Part shown: positions 3,789 to 15,646 of the stretch, piece after piece
Layout of the letters: every line of letters starts with the position of its first letter
Numbering within the stretch: the first letter of the stretch is position 1
Source: Sphingomonas sp. LY29
Lineage (GTDB): Bacteria > Pseudomonadota > Alphaproteobacteria > Sphingomonadales > Sphingomonadaceae
NCBI RefSeq assembly: GCF_035593985.1
Contig: NZ_CP141587.1
Location: forward strand, 1,488,001 to 1,552,000
DNA length: 64,000 nt
Reading direction: 5' to 3'
The notes under the pieces: model-generated
Seen by the model: the letters and a program-made list of their open reading frames with translations, nothing else
Told to the model about the DNA's origin: nothing
Databases searched by the model: none
Made by a program: the position numbers and the translations under genes

Positions 3789-4804
3789 AGTCGGCGAAGG
3801 GCAGCCTCAACGTGGCGCTCGACCGGCCCGATCCGTCGATCCGCTTCTACTTGTTCTACGGGCCCGACGAGGCCGGTTCGCGCGCCCATGCGCTGCGCCT
3901 GCTCAAGGGCATCGGGGATGCCGAGCGCTTCATCGTGATGGGGCAATCGATCAAGTCGGACCCAGCAACGCTCGCCGACGAGGCCGGCGCGATGTCGCTG
4001 TTCGGCGGCAAGCGCGCGGTCTGGATCGAGCCGGCCGGCGACGAAATCACCGAGGGGGTGAGCGCCTTGCTCGATGGCGGCGCAAGCGAGAGTGCGGTGA
4101 TCGCTCTGGCGGGGCCGCTGCGCAAGACGTCGTCGTTGCTCAAGCTCGCCGAGAGCCACCCTCGCGCATTGGCGCACATCAGCTATGTGCCCGAGGGACG
4201 CGAAGTCGAGCGCGTCGTCATCGATCTGGGTTCGGCCCTCGGCCTTCGCCTGTCGCCGGACGTCGCCCAGCGCATCGCCGGCGCGGCGAACAACAATCAG
4301 GCGATCGCGTCTCAGGAGCTGGAGAAGCTCGCCCTATTCGTCGGCGCCAGCGGGTCGAACCCGAAGGACCTCAGCCACGAATCGATCGACGCGGTCGGCG
4401 CCGACTCGTCGGAGGGTGACATGCTGAGACTCGGCGACCTCGCCCTTGGCGGACGAATGGACGAACTGGTCGAGGAATTGACCCGTCTTCCCCGCCACGG
4501 GTCGGAGGCAATCCCCGCTCTCCGCGCCCTCCAACGCCGCTTGCTCATGCTCGCCCCACTGCGGGCAAAAATCGAGAATGGCGAGCGCGTTGATGGCGTC
4601 ATGGCGGCAATGGGTAAGTCTTTGTTTTGGAAAGACAAACCACTGATCCAGAAACTCTTGTCGACGTGGTCCGCCGAACGGATCGCGGAGGCGGCGTCGC
4701 GGGTGGCTGAGCTGGAGAAGCAGCTTATTTTTGCCGGCGTCCCATCAGACTCCGCGCTCGGCGAAACGCTCGTATCCTTCGCCCGCGTCGCGCGGCCGCG
4801 CTAG
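3785..4804 (+). CDS. holA: DNA polymerase III subunit delta
   Basis: Clamp-loader delta subunit, which opens the beta sliding clamp. The 339-residue product has the typical beginning (Arg-Phe-Tyr-Leu-Phe-Tyr-Gly-Pro-Asp-Glu) where an AAA+ fold lacks a functional Walker motif, and a family-like C-terminal helical collar. The ATG at 3785 overlaps the lptE stop as ATGA. Its stop overlaps the convergent parB stop by 3 bases, so the two operons meet without an intergenic terminator. Confidence 0.95.
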   Translation: MKSAKGSLNVALDRPDPSIRFYLFYGPDEAGSRAHALRLLKGIGDAERFIVMGQSIKSDPATLADEAGAMSLFGGKRAVWIEPAGDEITEGVSALLDGGASESAVIALAGPLRKTSSLLKLAESHPRALAHISYVPEGREVERVVIDLGSALGLRLSPDVAQRIAGAANNNQAIASQELEKLALFVGASGSNPKDLSHESIDAVGADSSEGDMLRLGDLALGGRMDELVEELTRLPRHGSEAIPALRALQRRLLMLAPLRAKIENGERVDGVMAAMGKSLFWKDKPLIQKLLSTWSAERIAEAASRVAELEKQLIFAGVPSDSALGETLVSFARVARPR

Positions 4805-5673
4805 ATCGGTTCGCCGCTCAATCGCTGGCAGATCATATCTAGCTGATCGAGGCTGCTATAGTGGACGACGACATTCCCTCCGCCCTTCCCATGCGCCACC
4901 TTCACCCGCAGGCCGAGCAAATCTCCGAGCTGCCGCTCAAGGGCGGCGAGATCGGCATCGACCGGTCGGCGATCGCCGGTCTCAGTCTTCGCCTTGGCCT
5001 TGGCCGGCTTGGCGTCGCGAACGAGCGCTTCGGCCTGACGCACCGATAGGCCCTCTGCCACGATTTGCCGCGCAATCTCTTCGGCATTCGGCGCGGAGGC
5101 AATTGCTCGGGCGTGACCCATGCTGAGGTCGCCAGTCACGAGCATGTCGCGCACCGGCTTGGGAAGATCGAGCAATCGAAGCAAATTGCTGATGTGGCTT
5201 CGAGATTTGCCGACGACCTTCCCCAGGTCGTCCTGCGTATGATTGAAGTTATTGATCAGCTGACGATAACCCTCGGCTTCCTCGATCGCGTTGAGGTCTT
5301 CGCGTTGGATGTTCTCGATGAGCGCGACTTCGGCCGCAACGCCGTCGTCGAAGGTTCGAACGATTGCGGGGATCGTATGAAGCCCGGCCTTCTGCGCCGC
5401 GCGCCAGCGCCGCTCTCCGGCAATGATCGAATATCCGTCAGACGCGGTGCGGATCAGGATCGGCTGAAGGACCCCGCGCTCCTTGATCGATGAAGATAGC
5501 TCTTCGATCGCCGCATCGTCGAACCGCTTGCGTGGCTGGGTATCGTTCGGACGAATTCGGCCGATCTCGATTTCCCGGACCATCGCGCCGTGGTCCTGTC
5601 CCGTGGCTGGCGGCCGGAATGATTCGTCGATGAGTGCACTCAGTCCGCGACCAAGACCGCCTGGCTTCTTCAT
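4801..5673 (-). CDS. parB: chromosome partitioning protein ParB
   Basis: Centromere-binding CTPase that loads at parS and spreads, working with ParA to segregate origins. The 290-residue product has the N-terminal LGRGLSALI segment, the CTP-binding GERRWRA box (about 86-92), ENIQRE (about 120-125), a central helix-turn-helix (KVVGKSRSHISNLLRLL) and a C-terminal dimerisation domain. The ATG at 5673 overlaps the parA stop by 4 bases and gives the usual Met-Lys-Lys-Pro start; upstream in-frame sequence is parA coding in another frame. Candidate target sites are at 7013-7028 and 8911-8924. Confidence 0.97.
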   Translation of the reverse strand: MKKPGGLGRGLSALIDESFRPPATGQDHGAMVREIEIGRIRPNDTQPRKRFDDAAIEELSSSIKERGVLQPILIRTASDGYSIIAGERRWRAAQKAGLHTIPAIVRTFDDGVAAEVALIENIQREDLNAIEEAEGYRQLINNFNHTQDDLGKVVGKSRSHISNLLRLLDLPKPVRDMLVTGDLSMGHARAIASAPNAEEIARQIVAEGLSVRQAEALVRDAKPAKAKAKTETGDRRPVDADLAALERQLGDLLGLRVKVAHGKGGGNVVVHYSSLDQLDMICQRLSGEPI

Positions 5674-6455
5674 GCCGCCACCGCCGCGATCGACGGAAGT
5701 CGCGACATGATCTCTCGCGCCAGCTTGATATACGCTTCGGAGCCCGGACACTTCAGGTCGTAGATCAACGCGGGAAGTCCATGGCTCGGCGCTTCCGACA
5801 GGCGGACGTTGCGGGGAATGACGGTGGAGAACACCACGTTGCCAAGGCAGGCGCGGACGTCCTCCGCCACCTGCTGCGACAAATTGTTGCGACGGTCGAA
5901 CATCGTGAGTGCGACACCGAGAATCGAAAGTGAGGGATTAAAAGCAACGCGGATCCGCTCGACCGTCTGCAACAGCTGGCTCAACCCTTCGAGCGCAAAG
6001 AACTCGCACTGCAGCGGAACCAGCAAATGCTGCGAGGCCACGAGCGCGTTCACCGTCAACAGTCCGAGCGACGGTGGGCAGTCGAGGAGGCACACGTCCC
6101 AGCGGCCTGCGGGCACCTCGGCAAATGCCTGGTAAAGTCGGTGCGTCCGGTCCTCCATCGACACCATTTCAACCTCGGCGCCTGAGAGGTCGACCGTTGC
6201 AGGCAGCAGATCGAGCCTCGGTACGGGCGTGGCGACTGCGGCCTCGGCAATCGACGCCTCCCCGATCAGCACGTCATAGCTTGAGCTTGTCCTTGCCGCC
6301 TGACCGATGCCAAGACCAGTCGACGCATTTCCTTGCGGATCCAGGTCGACCAGCAAGACTTTCCATCCAATGGCTGCGAGCGCCGTCGCGAGATTGATCG
6401 CCGTGGTGGTCTTCCCCACGCCGCCTTTTTGGTTGGCGACCGCTATCCGGATCAT
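5670..6455 (-). CDS. parA: chromosome partitioning ATPase ParA
   Basis: Deviant Walker ATPase (ParA/Soj) that moves ParB-parS complexes over the nucleoid. The 261-residue product has the deviant Walker A box KGGVGKTT at residues 10-17, the following VDLDPQGNAS segment and a Walker B-type hydrophobic strand ending in Asp (CLLDCPPSLG). There is no N-terminal HTH, so it is the chromosomal type rather than the plasmid P1 type. The start overlaps the rsmG stop (ATGA), and parB follows with another 4-base overlap. Confidence 0.97.
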   Translation of the reverse strand: MIRIAVANQKGGVGKTTTAINLATALAAIGWKVLLVDLDPQGNASTGLGIGQAARTSSSYDVLIGEASIAEAAVATPVPRLDLLPATVDLSGAEVEMVSMEDRTHRLYQAFAEVPAGRWDVCLLDCPPSLGLLTVNALVASQHLLVPLQCEFFALEGLSQLLQTVERIRVAFNPSLSILGVALTMFDRRNNLSQQVAEDVRACLGNVVFSTVIPRNVRLSEAPSHGLPALIYDLKCPGSEAYIKLAREIMSRLPSIAAVAA

Positions 6456-7060
6456 GGCCTTCCCCTCCGCCGTACTCGCTCGGCGACGACAATTGCCGCG
6501 TCGTCGCTTGTCACGCTGGGAACCAGCGTGAATTCACCCTGCCACCTTATCATGGCTTCATCCAGTTCGGATTTCACCTGTCGCCCCTTAGGCAGGATCC
6601 ACCGAGTCTTCTTGCGGGACAGATGATTGGCCAGAGAAAAGAACTTGTCCAACGAGGCAACCGCGCGAGCCGTGATATTGTCGAAGGAACCGTGGACACG
6701 CTCAGCCTTCGCGGTCGATACAGTCACATTCGGTAGATTAAGTTCGAGCGCCACTTGCTTAAGAAACATCGCGCGAAGCGGCCGCGGCTCGATCAGTGTG
6801 ATGGGTTGGTCGACCAAGATCGCCAAGACGATACCGGGGAGCCCCGCCCCACTGCCAATGTCGCAGGTCGTGCCCGGAATAAGAATCGAGGCAAGCTGGG
6901 CACTATCAAGAATGTGGCGGTCCCAGAGATCATCCAGCGTCGATGCGCTTATCAAATTTTGTTTTGTTGCTTCCGACCGAAGCAAGCCTTCGAAGGCCCG
7001 TAGCTTTGTAAGTGTTTCACGTGGAACATCGAGATTTGTTGATCGGGCGATGTCCGTCAC
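6452..7060 (-). CDS. rsmG: 16S rRNA (guanine527-N7)-methyltransferase
   Basis: SAM-dependent methyltransferase (GidB) of G527 in 16S rRNA. The 202-residue product has the SAM-binding motif [13 protein letters not shown] and the following acidic and aromatic segments of the family. It starts at a GTG at 7060 that overlaps the mnmG stop as GTGA. Codons for Asp-Val-Pro-Arg-Glu-Thr near residues 11-16 overlap a parS-like palindrome, so this coding sequence may also serve as a centromere. It belongs to the mnmE-mnmG-rsmG-parA-parB cluster. Confidence 0.96.
7013..7028. other. parS-like ParB binding site (inside rsmG)
   Basis: TGTTTCACGTGGAACA is a near-perfect 16-bp palindrome differing from the widely conserved parS consensus TGTTTCACGTGAAACA at one base. 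It lies in the N-terminal coding part of rsmG, about 1.3 kb from parB. Assigned from consensus match and from adjacent parAB; not tested. Confidence 0.85.
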
Positions 7061-8865: not shown

Positions 8866-8910
8866 TCACGGCACTTACCGCAGCCCCGCATGACATTCAA
8901 ACCAAGGAGT

Positions 8911-8924
8911 GTTCCACGTGGAAC
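8911..8924. other. parS-like ParB binding site (mnmE-mnmG intergenic)
   Basis: GTTCCACGTGGAAC is a perfect 14-bp palindrome matching the core of parS sites described in Caulobacter and relatives. It lies in the 66-bp gap between the mnmE stop and the mnmG start, about 5 kb from the proposed origin and 3.2 kb from parB. Confidence 0.85.
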
Positions 8925-8931
8925 CTACGGC

Positions 8932-12910: not shown

Positions 12911-13963
12911 TCAGCCCTTTACCAGCCGAACGAGCTGTTCGACGTGCGCGATCGGCGTCGTCTGCTGGATCCCGTGGCCGAGGTTGAAGATGTGGGGCCG
13001 CATGGCGAAGGCGTCAAGGATGCGCTGTACGGCATCCTCCAGCGCGTCCCCGCCCGCGATCAGCGCGAGCGGGTCGAGGTTGCCCTGAACGGGCATCCCC
13101 GGCGGCAGTTCGCGGTGGGCCCAAGCCGGATCGACCGTCTCGTCGATGCCGATCGCGTCGACCCCGGTTTCACGCGCATAGGCCGCAAGCTTGCCGCCCG
13201 CGCCCTTGGGGAAGCCGATGATCGGCGTGTCGGGGTGGCGCTGTTTCAGCTGGTCGACAATCCACGCGGTGCGCGCGATGACGAGTTGCTCGAACTGCGT
13301 CGGCGACAGGCTTCCCGCCCAACTGTCGAACAACTGGACCGCATCGACCCCCGCCTCGATCTGACCCGACAGATAATCGACCGTGATCGATGCAACGATG
13401 TCGAGCAGCGCGCCCATCTTCGCCGGATCGGCGTAGGCGAGCATGCGGGCCTCGGCCTGCTCGCGGCTGCCCTGACCCGCAATCATGTAGGTGGCGACGG
13501 TCCACGGGCTGCCGGCAAAGCCAAGCAGCGTGACGTTGCCGGGAAGCGCGGCCTTCACCCGCCGCACCGTCTCGTAGATCGGGTCGAACTGCTCGAAGTG
13601 AGGCTTCAGGTCGCGGATGCGCGCCTTGTCCATCGTCGGCGAAAGCCGCGGGCCCTCGCCGGCAACGAAGGTCAGGTCCATGCCCATCGCGTGCGGAACG
13701 ATCAGGATGTCGGAAAACAGGATCGCGCCGTCGAACGGGAAGCGCGCGAGCGGCTGCAAGGTGATCTCGGCCGCGGCGGCGGGATCGTAGACCATGTCGA
13801 GGAAGCCGCCCTTCTCAGCCCGAAGCGCGCGATATTCGGGCAAGTAGCGGCCAGCCTGGCGCATCAGCCACATCGGAGGCGGATCCTGCCGCTCGCCGCG
13901 GAGAACGCTGAGCAGGGGCTTAAACGGGGCACCCGGCGACGGGTCGGACGGGACGCGGGCCAG
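12911..13963 (-). CDS. hemE: uroporphyrinogen decarboxylase, probable CTG start
   Basis: Decarboxylates uroporphyrinogen III to coproporphyrinogen III. An ATG at 13873 gives Met-Trp-Leu-Met-Arg-Gln-Ala-Gly-Arg-Tyr, but that omits the conserved upstream part. In the same frame the upstream codons read PLLSVLRGERQDPPP, the normal HemE N-terminus. No ATG, GTG or TTG codon occurs there. A CTG at 13961-13963 is preceded by AGGAG (13971-13975) at 7-base spacing, giving about 350 residues, the family length. Internal motifs such as FSDILIVPHAMGM and the conserved Arg and Asp of the active site are intact. The start is thus placed at 13963; the rest is certain. Confidence 0.9.
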   Translation of the reverse strand: MARVPSDPSPGAPFKPLLSVLRGERQDPPPMWLMRQAGRYLPEYRALRAEKGGFLDMVYDPAAAAEITLQPLARFPFDGAILFSDILIVPHAMGMDLTFVAGEGPRLSPTMDKARIRDLKPHFEQFDPIYETVRRVKAALPGNVTLLGFAGSPWTVATYMIAGQGSREQAEARMLAYADPAKMGALLDIVASITVDYLSGQIEAGVDAVQLFDSWAGSLSPTQFEQLVIARTAWIVDQLKQRHPDTPIIGFPKGAGGKLAAYARETGVDAIGIDETVDPAWAHRELPPGMPVQGNLDPLALIAGGDALEDAVQRILDAFAMRPHIFNLGHGIQQTTPIAHVEQLVRLVKG

Positions 13964-13970
13964 CCTCTTT

Positions 13971-13975
13971 CTCCT
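13971..13975 (-). promoter_or_regulatory. Shine-Dalgarno sequence for the hemE CTG start
   Basis: On the minus strand AGGAG precedes CTG (13963-13961) by seven bases. It is the only good ribosome binding site near the conserved HemE N-terminus and decides the start. Confidence 0.6.
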
Positions 13976-14116
13976 AATATAGAGTCTTATAGTCTTAGAC
14001 TGATGATGATGATGGGGCGTTGGCAGCGGGGTTTAAGCGCGGCTTCCGACTTTGCCAACAGCGGCGATTCAATCGCGACGTCGGGGAATCCGGCGAGTCG
14101 CACCAACTCATTCCCA

Positions 14117-14125
14117 TGATTCACA
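14117..14125 (+). promoter_or_regulatory. DnaA box-like sequence 1
   Basis: TGATTCACA, one mismatch from TTATNCACA, and close to the G-box form (TGATCCACA) described at the Caulobacter origin. It contains an overlapping GATTC methylation site. Confidence 0.6.
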
Positions 14126-14148
14126 GGCTGGGGAGAAGATTCATCCCC

Positions 14149-14157
14149 TGTGGACAA
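14149..14157 (-). promoter_or_regulatory. DnaA box-like sequence 2
   Basis: The minus strand reads TTGTCCACA, one mismatch from TTATCCACA. It lies 23 bases beyond box 1, in opposite orientation. Confidence 0.65.
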
Positions 14158-14239
14158 GAGTCGCAAAACTGCGCGCGCAGCGGGGAGCGATCGGGCCAGT
14201 TGGGTCATCCCCGGCCTTGCGCTAGGGATGCGCACCGGT

Positions 14240-14248
14240 TTTTCCACA
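14240..14248 (+). promoter_or_regulatory. DnaA box-like sequence 3
   Basis: TTTTCCACA, one mismatch from TTATCCACA, ten bases before the maf start codon. If bound, DnaA could also affect maf expression. Confidence 0.6.
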
Positions 14249-14258
14249 GGCTTCTCCC

Positions 14259-14834
14259 ATGACTCTCATTCTCGCCAGCAGCAGCGCCATCCGGCGATCG
14301 ATGCTCGACCAGTCCGGGGTCGAATATCGCCCGGAAAGTCCCGATTTCGACGAGGATGCGGCCAAGCAGTCGCACGACGGCGACGGCGCAAGCCTGGCGC
14401 TGCAGCTCGCCAAGGGAAAGGCGTTGTCGGGGCGCGGCGATGACTGGAGCATCGGGTCGGACAGCGTGCTCGAGGTCGATGGCGTCCGCTATTCGAAACC
14501 GCGTGATCGCGACGAAGCCGCGGATCACCTTCGCCGCTTCTCAGGACGAAAGATGCGCCTGTCGAGCGCGGTGGCGTTGGCGAAGGACGGCCGCATCGAC
14601 TGGAGCCATGTCGATACTGCCACCCTCGTCGTGCGCGCGTTGAGCGACGAGTTCATCGCCTCCTATCTCGATGCCGAGTGGCCCGACGTCGGCTATTGTG
14701 TCGGGGTCTTCCGGATGGAGGGTCGCGGCGTGACGCTGTTCGACCGCATCGATGGCGACTTCTACACCATCCTCGGCATGCCCCTGCTCCCCCTGCTCGG
14801 CGCGCTTCGGGCGCGCGGACTGGTGGCCGCATGA
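14259..14834 (+). CDS. maf: Maf-like nucleoside triphosphate pyrophosphatase
   Basis: Cytosolic Maf/HAM1-type pyrophosphatase, of the family that hydrolyses dTTP, UTP or modified nucleotides. The 191-residue product begins with the family motif Leu-Ala-Ser-Ser-Ser-Ala-Ile-Arg-Arg (usually SxSPRR, here with Ala-Ile), has a Ser-Asp-Ser catalytic region and the Ser-Lys-Pro loop. Which nucleotide it acts on cannot be told. First gene to the right of the proposed origin; its stop overlaps aroE by 4 bases. Confidence 0.9.
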   Translation: MTLILASSSAIRRSMLDQSGVEYRPESPDFDEDAAKQSHDGDGASLALQLAKGKALSGRGDDWSIGSDSVLEVDGVRYSKPRDRDEAADHLRRFSGRKMRLSSAVALAKDGRIDWSHVDTATLVVRALSDEFIASYLDAEWPDVGYCVGVFRMEGRGVTLFDRIDGDFYTILGMPLLPLLGALRARGLVAA

Positions 14835-15646
14835 CCCGCCCCTATGCCGAAGTGATTGGCGACCCGATCGAGCATAGCCGCTCGCCGTTGATCCATAATT
14901 TCTGGCTCGAGGTGCTCGGGATCGACGCCGACTATCGGCGATATCGGGTCGATCGGGCGACGCTGCCCGCCTATCTTGCCGAGCGACGCGCCGACCCCGC
15001 TTGGCGCGGGACCAACGTCACCATGCCGCTCAAGCTCGACGCGCTGCATCTCGCGGACGAAGCGACCGATCAGGCGCTCGCGGCCGGCGCGGCCAACCTG
15101 TTGATCCGGCGAAACGGCGGGCTGACCGCGGTGAACACCGATGTCCGGGCCATCGGCATGCTGCTTGGGCGGCTGGCGAAGCGTGGGGCCGCATTCGGCT
15201 CGGTCACGATCCTCGGCAATGGCGGCGCGGCGCGGGCGGCGCTGGTCGCACTGAAGTTGCTCGGGGTGTCGGCGGTGCGGATCCAGGCGCGTGACATGGT
15301 CGCGGCGCGCAAGCTCAGCGTCGAGTTCGGGCTCGATGTCGAGCCGGCGCCACTGACGGCGCCGATCGAAAGCGATGGACTGATCAACGCGACCCCGCTC
15401 GGCATGCCCGGTCGCGACTGCCTTAATTGCGAGCTTGGCGGACTTCCCGACAAGGGATGGGTGTTCGACATGGTCACCGACCCCGACGATACGCCGCTGC
15501 TGCAGGCGGCGCGGGCGCGGGGATTGAGGACCGTCGCGGGGCTCGACATGCTGGTCGAGCAGGCCGACCGCAGCTTCCGGTTGCTGTTCGGGGTGGACGC
15601 GCCGCGTGACCGCGACGTCGATCTCTGGCAAAAGCTGGGGCGATGA
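14831..15646 (+). CDS. aroE: shikimate dehydrogenase
   Basis: Reduces 3-dehydroshikimate to shikimate with NADPH in aromatic amino acid synthesis. The 271-residue product has the substrate motif SRSPLIHN, the catalytic Lys in NVTMPLK, and the nucleotide-binding GNGGAARA. It begins with ATG at 14831 overlapping the maf stop (ATGA), and its stop overlaps coaE by 4 bases, so maf-aroE-coaE are translationally coupled. Confidence 0.96.

Follow-up and report, generated by a model that had tools for sequence, protein, structure and literature searches.

The chromosomal origin of Caulobacter crescentus, Cori, is located between hemE and a gene of the COG1806/DUF299 family, and it holds an AT-rich stretch, weak DnaA boxes whose second base is G (TGATCCACA) and several GANTC sites, the latter being present in Caulobacter origins according to PMC3973325. 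For most Sphingomonadaceae, an origin near hemE with conserved DnaA boxes and a DNA unwinding element (DUE) has been proposed (PMC4741004). In Wolbachia, the origin lies between hemE and COG1253, and both this origin and that of Neorickettsia are without a COG1806/DUF299 neighbour (PMC1914354). Concerning methylation sites, the repABC origin ori2 of Agrobacterium is rich in GANTC, and its activity depends on some of these sites (PMC11514494), while oriC of E. coli, the model of the Dam/SeqA type, is crowded by GATC, with some sites on weak DnaA boxes.

The locus considered here is the gap between hemE and maf, at 1.502 Mb of a Sphingomonadales chromosome of 2,463,131 bases (2.46 Mb). The chromosome is a single contig, and the analysed stretch of 64 kb that contains the gap (the window) spans 1,488,001–1,552,000 of it. 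With Cori, the gap shares the position beside hemE, an AT-rich stretch, several GANTC and weak DnaA boxes in which the second base is G. It differs from Cori in having no DUF299 neighbour and no exact CtrA site, in that one of its boxes (box B) carries a second change that creates a GANTC site, and in the distance to dnaA, 0.96 Mb. With the oriC of Sphingopyxis and other Sphingomonadaceae, it shares the place beside hemE, the conserved DnaA boxes and a candidate DUE, but its other neighbour is maf rather than DUF299, and GANTC is absent from the origin discussion in the passages of PMC4741004 consulted. The Wolbachia origin is likewise at the side of hemE with the other neighbour exchanged, but a rearrangement took place there and COG1806 was kept elsewhere, whereas the studied genome has no PF03618 match. 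Agrobacterium ori2 is GANTC-rich like the gap, but it is started by RepC, not DnaA, and the GANTC sites act largely through the transcription of repABC and repE. As in E. coli oriC, methylation sites crowd the gap and one overlaps a weak DnaA-like site, but they are of the GANTC/CcrM kind, SeqA was not found and any effect of methylation is putative. A hemE-side origin has already been proposed for Sphingomonadaceae, and the place and kind of the present one are ordinary; no paper on the replication origin of Sphingomicrobium was found in the open-licence literature.

The hemE–maf gap and its flanking genes

The gap and the nearby features of the segregation system are the following:

13964..14258, no strand: putative chromosomal origin (oriC), hemE–maf intergenic gap (DnaA-box pair, GANTC and AT peaks, skew, conservation)
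12911..13963, minus strand: hemE, uroporphyrinogen decarboxylase, probable CTG start (PF01208, E 1.8e-116 over a longer frame)
14259..14834, plus strand: maf-like gene (PF02545), right neighbour in place of DUF299
4801..6455, minus strand: parB (4801–5751) and parA (5670–6455)
7013..7028, no strand: parS-like site, one mismatch to TGTTCCACGTGGAACA
8910..8925, no strand: parS-like site, one mismatch to TGTTCCACGTGGAACA

A previous reading of the sequence only (the sequence-only reading) had described a gene-free gap beside hemE, genes running outward on both sides, and parAB and parS sites nearby, all of which was borne out. The limits of the gap (13964–14258, 295 bp) are set by the hemE CTG at 13963 and the maf start at 14259, and a profile search gave a full URO-D match for hemE starting at this CTG. 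Nine genes run leftward (parB, parA, rsmG, mnmG, mnmE, terC, rho, a UPF0093 gene and hemE) and five rightward (maf, aroE, coaE, an exonuclease gene of the dnaQ type and a gene for a ribosome protein of the S30AE type). The two parS-like sites were found with TGTTCCACGTGGAACA, which we take to be the parS consensus, the expected number of sites with up to three mismatches being 0.09. An intergenic gap beside hemE, with parAB and parS near it, is thus found here as in hemE-type alphaproteobacterial origins. No known RNA family was matched in 13000–15000 up to E 1. The hemE start codon at 13961–13963 appears to be CTG; the aligned codon in the genus is GTG in 65 of 70 rows, CTG in 2, TTG in 2 and GGG in 1.

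The gap was compared in two sets of relatives. Within the genus, hemE was found in 70 of 71 genomes and the upstream gap was examined in 69, the last one having too little contig upstream; adding the Sphingomicrobium MAG L045, whose HemE is identical to one of the 69, gave 70 rows. In all of them maf is next, 353–413 bp from the point aligned to window position 13873. Among 80 named loci, 77 gave a gap (all except L109, L110 and L115), with DUF299 next in 74 and maf in three, i.e. L045 and two Devosia loci. The outside set consisted of 64 of these loci (L041–L106 and L114, minus L045, L101 and L103), mostly with sphingomonad names; five of them (L043, L048, L049, L080 and L089) carry the label Alphaproteobacteria, Bacillus or Microvirga and were placed by HemE identity. 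The layout of the gap described below is kept across the genus and is looser in the other sphingomonads, which have DUF299 next.

DnaA boxes, AT-rich stretch and other blocks

The motifs and blocks in the gap are these:

14117..14125, plus strand: DnaA-like box B, TGATTCACA, two mismatches to TTATCCACA; overlapped by GATTC at 14118–14122 (composite site)
14149..14157, minus strand: DnaA box C, TTGTCCACA, one mismatch to TTATCCACA
14240..14248, plus strand: DnaA box D, TTTTCCACA, next to maf, the most conserved box, one mismatch to TTATCCACA
14129..14134, minus strand: TCCCCA within TTCTCCCCA, like the Caulobacter W-box, a very weak DnaA site (W-box consensus from PMC4285127)
13964..14013, no strand: AT-rich stretch, candidate DUE (66–73% AT in 50–30 bp windows)
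14019..14060, no strand: conserved block with inverted ends GTTGGC ... GCCAAC (alignment; right arm GCCAACA nearly fixed)
14215..14227, plus strand: conserved GCGCTAG block (alignment; GCGCTAG in 43/70)

The sequence-only reading had counted three near-consensus DnaA boxes in both orientations. This holds for boxes C and D, on opposite strands and with one mismatch each, but 'near-consensus' was generous for box B, with two. Genome-wide there are 22 TTNTCCACA sites, and the only pair less than 1 kb apart is the one in the hemE–maf gap. The total is no higher than that of the reversed-pattern control (9+13 versus 9+12 in the whole genome), and about 0.02 pairs within 91 bp would be expected from 22 randomly placed sites (hand calculation). 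When the 800 kb sampled were scanned with 295-bp windows placed every 5 bp, none contained two boxes of at most one mismatch. Taken as a whole, the 64-kb window is not clearly enriched (5 boxes with up to one mismatch versus 2.6 expected, 7 of 100 shuffles reaching 5), so the boxes of the gap are notable because of their closeness to each other and not for their number in the window. They form a cluster as in hemE-type alphaproteobacterial origins.

Concerning conservation, TTNTCCACA occurs at the columns of box D in 67 of the 70 genus rows, and somewhere in the gap in 37/64 outside loci. Box C is poorly kept: across 12 bp, the 70 rows show 51 different forms. This, together with the fact that only two boxes of the gap are within one mismatch of the consensus, counts against the origin. 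Box B is a composite with GANTC in 47/70 rows, reads ATCCACA in 14/70 and has other forms in 9/70. According to PMC4285127, the G-boxes of Caulobacter (TGATCCACA) have a change at the second position and the boxes of Helicobacter (TCATTCACA) one at the fifth. Box B joins both changes and, because of this combination, it may be a weak DnaA site.

The AT-richer stretch which had been noticed in the gap is a true peak, with 70% AT over 40 bp from 13968, a value reached in 0.024% of the windows of the 39 sampled stretches that are readable throughout; across the window lengths used, 0.02–0.04% of the sampled windows were as high. The gap is therefore AT-rich above the level of the genome, as hemE-type alphaproteobacterial origins are. 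The stretch has no fixed sequence in the genus, where it often has a TATAT core (TATAT in 41/70 gaps). The GAT repeats at 14001–14013 were considered as a DnaA-trio motif and discarded, as by eye they did not fit it.

TTGCCAACA was found in 69/70 gaps of the genus and in 23/64 outside gaps. The promoter of hemE, on the minus strand, could lie within the block at 14019–14060, as tentatively suggested by a promoter-like pair facing hemE, formed by TTGGCA at 14058–14053 (two mismatches to the consensus used) and GCTTAAAC at 14038–14031. A hairpin formed by the inverted ends of the block was also considered; its left arm takes 59 forms in the 70 rows, and no claim is made for the hairpin. The GCGCTAG block could possibly be the −10 region of the maf promoter; no −10-like motif facing maf was found in the gap with one mismatch to the consensus used. 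Unlike in hemE-type alphaproteobacterial origins, there is no exact TTAA-N7-TTAA site, the CtrA motif, in the gap, the best CtrA-like site having two mismatches. No match was found in the gap to the IHF consensus used, which is also missed by the Cori IHF site given in PMC4285127.

GC skew and the position of dnaA

A GC-skew analysis over the full chromosome had been proposed as a check of the origin. It was run on a sample of 40 stretches of 20 kb (800 kb, 32% of the chromosome; the gap itself is outside the sample), one of which contained 5,000 unreadable bases and contributed the skew of the remainder. The cumulative GC skew reached its maximum near 0.26 Mb and its minimum near 1.55 Mb. In the best two-segment fit, one break falls at 1.559–1.601 Mb, 57–99 kb from the gap, and the opposite one at 0.266–0.308 Mb, 48–50% of the chromosome away from it. 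The check thus confirmed a turn in the region, but not a minimum on the gap itself. AT skew showed no matching break. A skew turn, as expected for hemE-type alphaproteobacterial origins, is present in the best fit, although coarsely located. Skew alone does not pick the gap, because the next-best fits, slightly worse, move the break nearer the gap to about 1.72 and 1.66 Mb and leave the opposite one where it was. It is the skew that points to the region, and the DnaA boxes and their conservation that point to the place. No dif site was found with up to three mismatches to the proteobacterial core used, an uninformative result, so that the terminus is placed by the skew. The gene dnaA is at the start of the deposited contig (C-terminal domain at 1330–1536), 0.96 Mb from the gap.

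Probable loss of the DUF299 neighbour

The absence of the DUF299-type protein, noted as an anomaly by the sequence-only reading, is genuine and has an ordinary explanation. No match to PF03618 was found in the whole studied genome, nor in any of the 71 genomes of the genus, 53 of them with a completeness of 90% or more and a contamination of 5% or less. In the family, PF03618 is missing in 9 of 149 sampled genomes. A second domain, PF01326, which forms the N-terminal part of pyruvate phosphate dikinase and PEP synthase, has no match in 69/71 genomes of the genus and in 8/149 of the family. Within the family, PF01326 is missing in 6 of the 9 genomes without PF03618 versus 2 of the 140 with it. 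The six genomes without both comprise three from the studied genus, two from one other and one from a third. The pairing is broken in 5/149 family genomes (three with PF01326 but without DUF299, two the reverse), all of them assemblies of 80–450 contigs. Two of the 71 genus genomes have PF01326 without DUF299 and may hold a PEP synthase.

In E. coli, the DUF299 protein switches PEP synthase off and on (PMC2817694). It seems reasonable to interpret that the regulator was probably lost together with its target PEP enzyme, which left maf as the neighbour of an origin that kept its place. The COG1806/DUF299 boundary of hemE-type origins is thus absent here, and it is not indispensable, as seen in Wolbachia and Neorickettsia. 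Since the outside gaps share a looser form of the layout, the origin would most likely have existed before DUF299 was lost. The customary gene on the right can thus vanish with its metabolic target while the origin remains in place. The two Devosia loci (L107 and L117) also have the order hemE–gap–maf, with no DUF299 found at the locus, perhaps an independent loss.

GANTC sites

Two entries describe the GANTC sites:

13982..14265, no strand: cluster of eight GANTC at 13982, 14066, 14086, 14095, 14118, 14138, 14158 and 14261
14095..14099, no strand: most conserved GANTC, GAGTC within GCGAGTCGC (same column in 66/70 genus rows and 44/64 outside rows)

The dense set of GANTC that had been reported in the gap amounts to 7 sites versus 0.51 expected per 295 bp from the sampled genome, the eighth being just past the gap. 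Only 0.03% of the sampled 295-bp windows had six or more sites. All of them were in one of the 40 stretches, around 431,978 (8 sites), a location taken from the list of best windows per stretch; the other stretches had at most 5. Another five-base motif, AGNCT, is likewise overrepresented in the gap (5 versus 0.53), so part of the GANTC signal may be due to composition. CGAGTCG occurs in 55/70 gaps of the genus. The GANTC at column 14118, within box B, occurs in 3/64 outside rows; GANTC figures for the outside set refer to aligned columns only, because bases preceding the aligned start of DUF299 swell its totals (82 hits at the insertion after column 14258). The composite state of box B was followed on a hemE tree with 69 of the rows, a short HemE having been left out. 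It is present in 46 of them and changes 9 times, versus 19.5 in shuffles. The composite state is therefore inherited, and it has been gained or lost repeatedly.

The gap resembles sequestered origins of the Dam/SeqA type only in part: the crowd of methylation sites is present, as GANTC instead of GATC, but no match to SeqA (PF03925) was found in the studied genome. GcrA is present in it, and RAMA-domain proteins occur in 68/71 genomes of the genus (67 over the cut-off). The gene behind the cluster around 431,978 codes for a DNA methylase (PF01555) with the RAMA domain found in CcrM (430832–431131). That crowd (at least 6 sites per 295 bp in the sample), at 431998–432268 of the chromosome, is directly before this CcrM-type gene and extends into the upstream one, RNase HII-like by eye. 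It may reflect self-regulation by methylation.

Concerning reports on other origins, no mention of GANTC in sphingomonad origins was found in the part of the open-licence literature that was consulted, and the passages of the CcrM/GANTC literature consulted gave no GANTC count for origins of Sphingomonadales.

Interpretation of the gap

Position, motifs, their rarity and conservation, and regional skew are directly seen. Taken together, the unique box pair, the AT and GANTC peaks, the skew and the conservation support the proposal of a chromosomal origin between hemE and maf, and the gap is very probably the origin from which DnaA initiates replication of the main chromosome. That the origin is instead at dnaA would agree with the location of this gene at the contig start, which is on the other hand a common place for cutting the circle. 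There is next to no chance of it, as the skew turns at about 1.56–1.60 and 0.27–0.31 Mb and not at 0, none of the 22 TTNTCCACA sites is within 25 kb of the contig start, and dnaA is not kept near the origin in Sphingomonadales (PMC8116508); this reading is discarded on the basis of skew and box positions. The assignment to the gap thus places an origin in a group where dnaA is no guide. It is also highly improbable that the conserved blocks and the GANTC cluster represent no more than two divergent promoters, those of hemE and maf, on which GcrA and CcrM would act, with the origin elsewhere in the region. Both promoters must sit in the gap, where a promoter-like pair faces hemE and GCGCTAG faces maf, proteins of the GcrA and CcrM type exist, and the one other sampled GANTC peak of at least six sites directly precedes ccrM. 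However, this leaves the genome-unique pair of DnaA boxes unexplained, as well as the AT-rich stretch, the nearby parS-like sites and the skew turn, and promoters and origin can overlap. For the gap as an origin, the most likely sequence of events, as drawn from Cori and E. coli, is the following: DnaA-ATP would first hold box D (14240) and box C (14149), and would spread to the left over box B (14117) and the weak TCCCCA-type sites; the AT-rich stretch beside hemE (13964–14013) would open and the helicase would be loaded there. ParB, on the two parS-like sites 5–7 kb to the left, would then separate the copied origins.

On top of the origin, and not instead of it, CcrM methylation could gate initiation, GANTC sites (above all that of box B) altering the binding of DnaA in such a way that newly copied, hemimethylated origins do not refire. 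We consider this rather unlikely. The 7 GANTC of the gap versus 0.51 expected, the site at 14095 kept in 66/70 rows, and the GANTC within box B in 47/70, with 9 changes on the 69-row hemE tree, are in its favour; moreover, weak DnaA sites with an overlapping GATC are blocked by SeqA in E. coli (PMC4285127), and in Agrobacterium, where GANTC sites affect the repABC origin ori2, the authors suggest that hemimethylation may stop its refiring (PMC11514494). On the other side, the studied genome is without SeqA, 23/70 genus rows and 61/64 outside rows have no GANTC at the box B column, and alphaproteobacterial intergenic DNA is, according to a passage of the literature, generally enriched in GANTC. 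An older model of Caulobacter assumed that full methylation of the origin was needed for firing (PMC2217572), but Caulobacter without CcrM has normal control of initiation (PMC3973325), and depletion of CcrM in Agrobacterium delays ori2, with its GANTC sites, with no obvious effect at the DnaA-dependent ori1 (PMC11514494). Methylation may tune DnaA binding at the gap. The stronger form, in which the origin of the genus senses its own copying state through a CcrM site in a weak DnaA box, DnaA itself reading full versus hemimethylation as a SeqA-free brake, is quite doubtful. Conserved GANTC sites, one of them inside a DnaA-like box, nevertheless offer a test case for methylation control of a DnaA origin outside the Dam/SeqA bacteria, and this layout is the part that deserves a bench test.

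Two minor observations concern GANTC numbers. The 64-kb window is depleted in GANTC, with 125 sites versus 357 in shuffles, about a third. Among the relatives, L161, L094, L096, L104 and L085 have 13–15 GANTC in the gap as cut, over twice the usual number.
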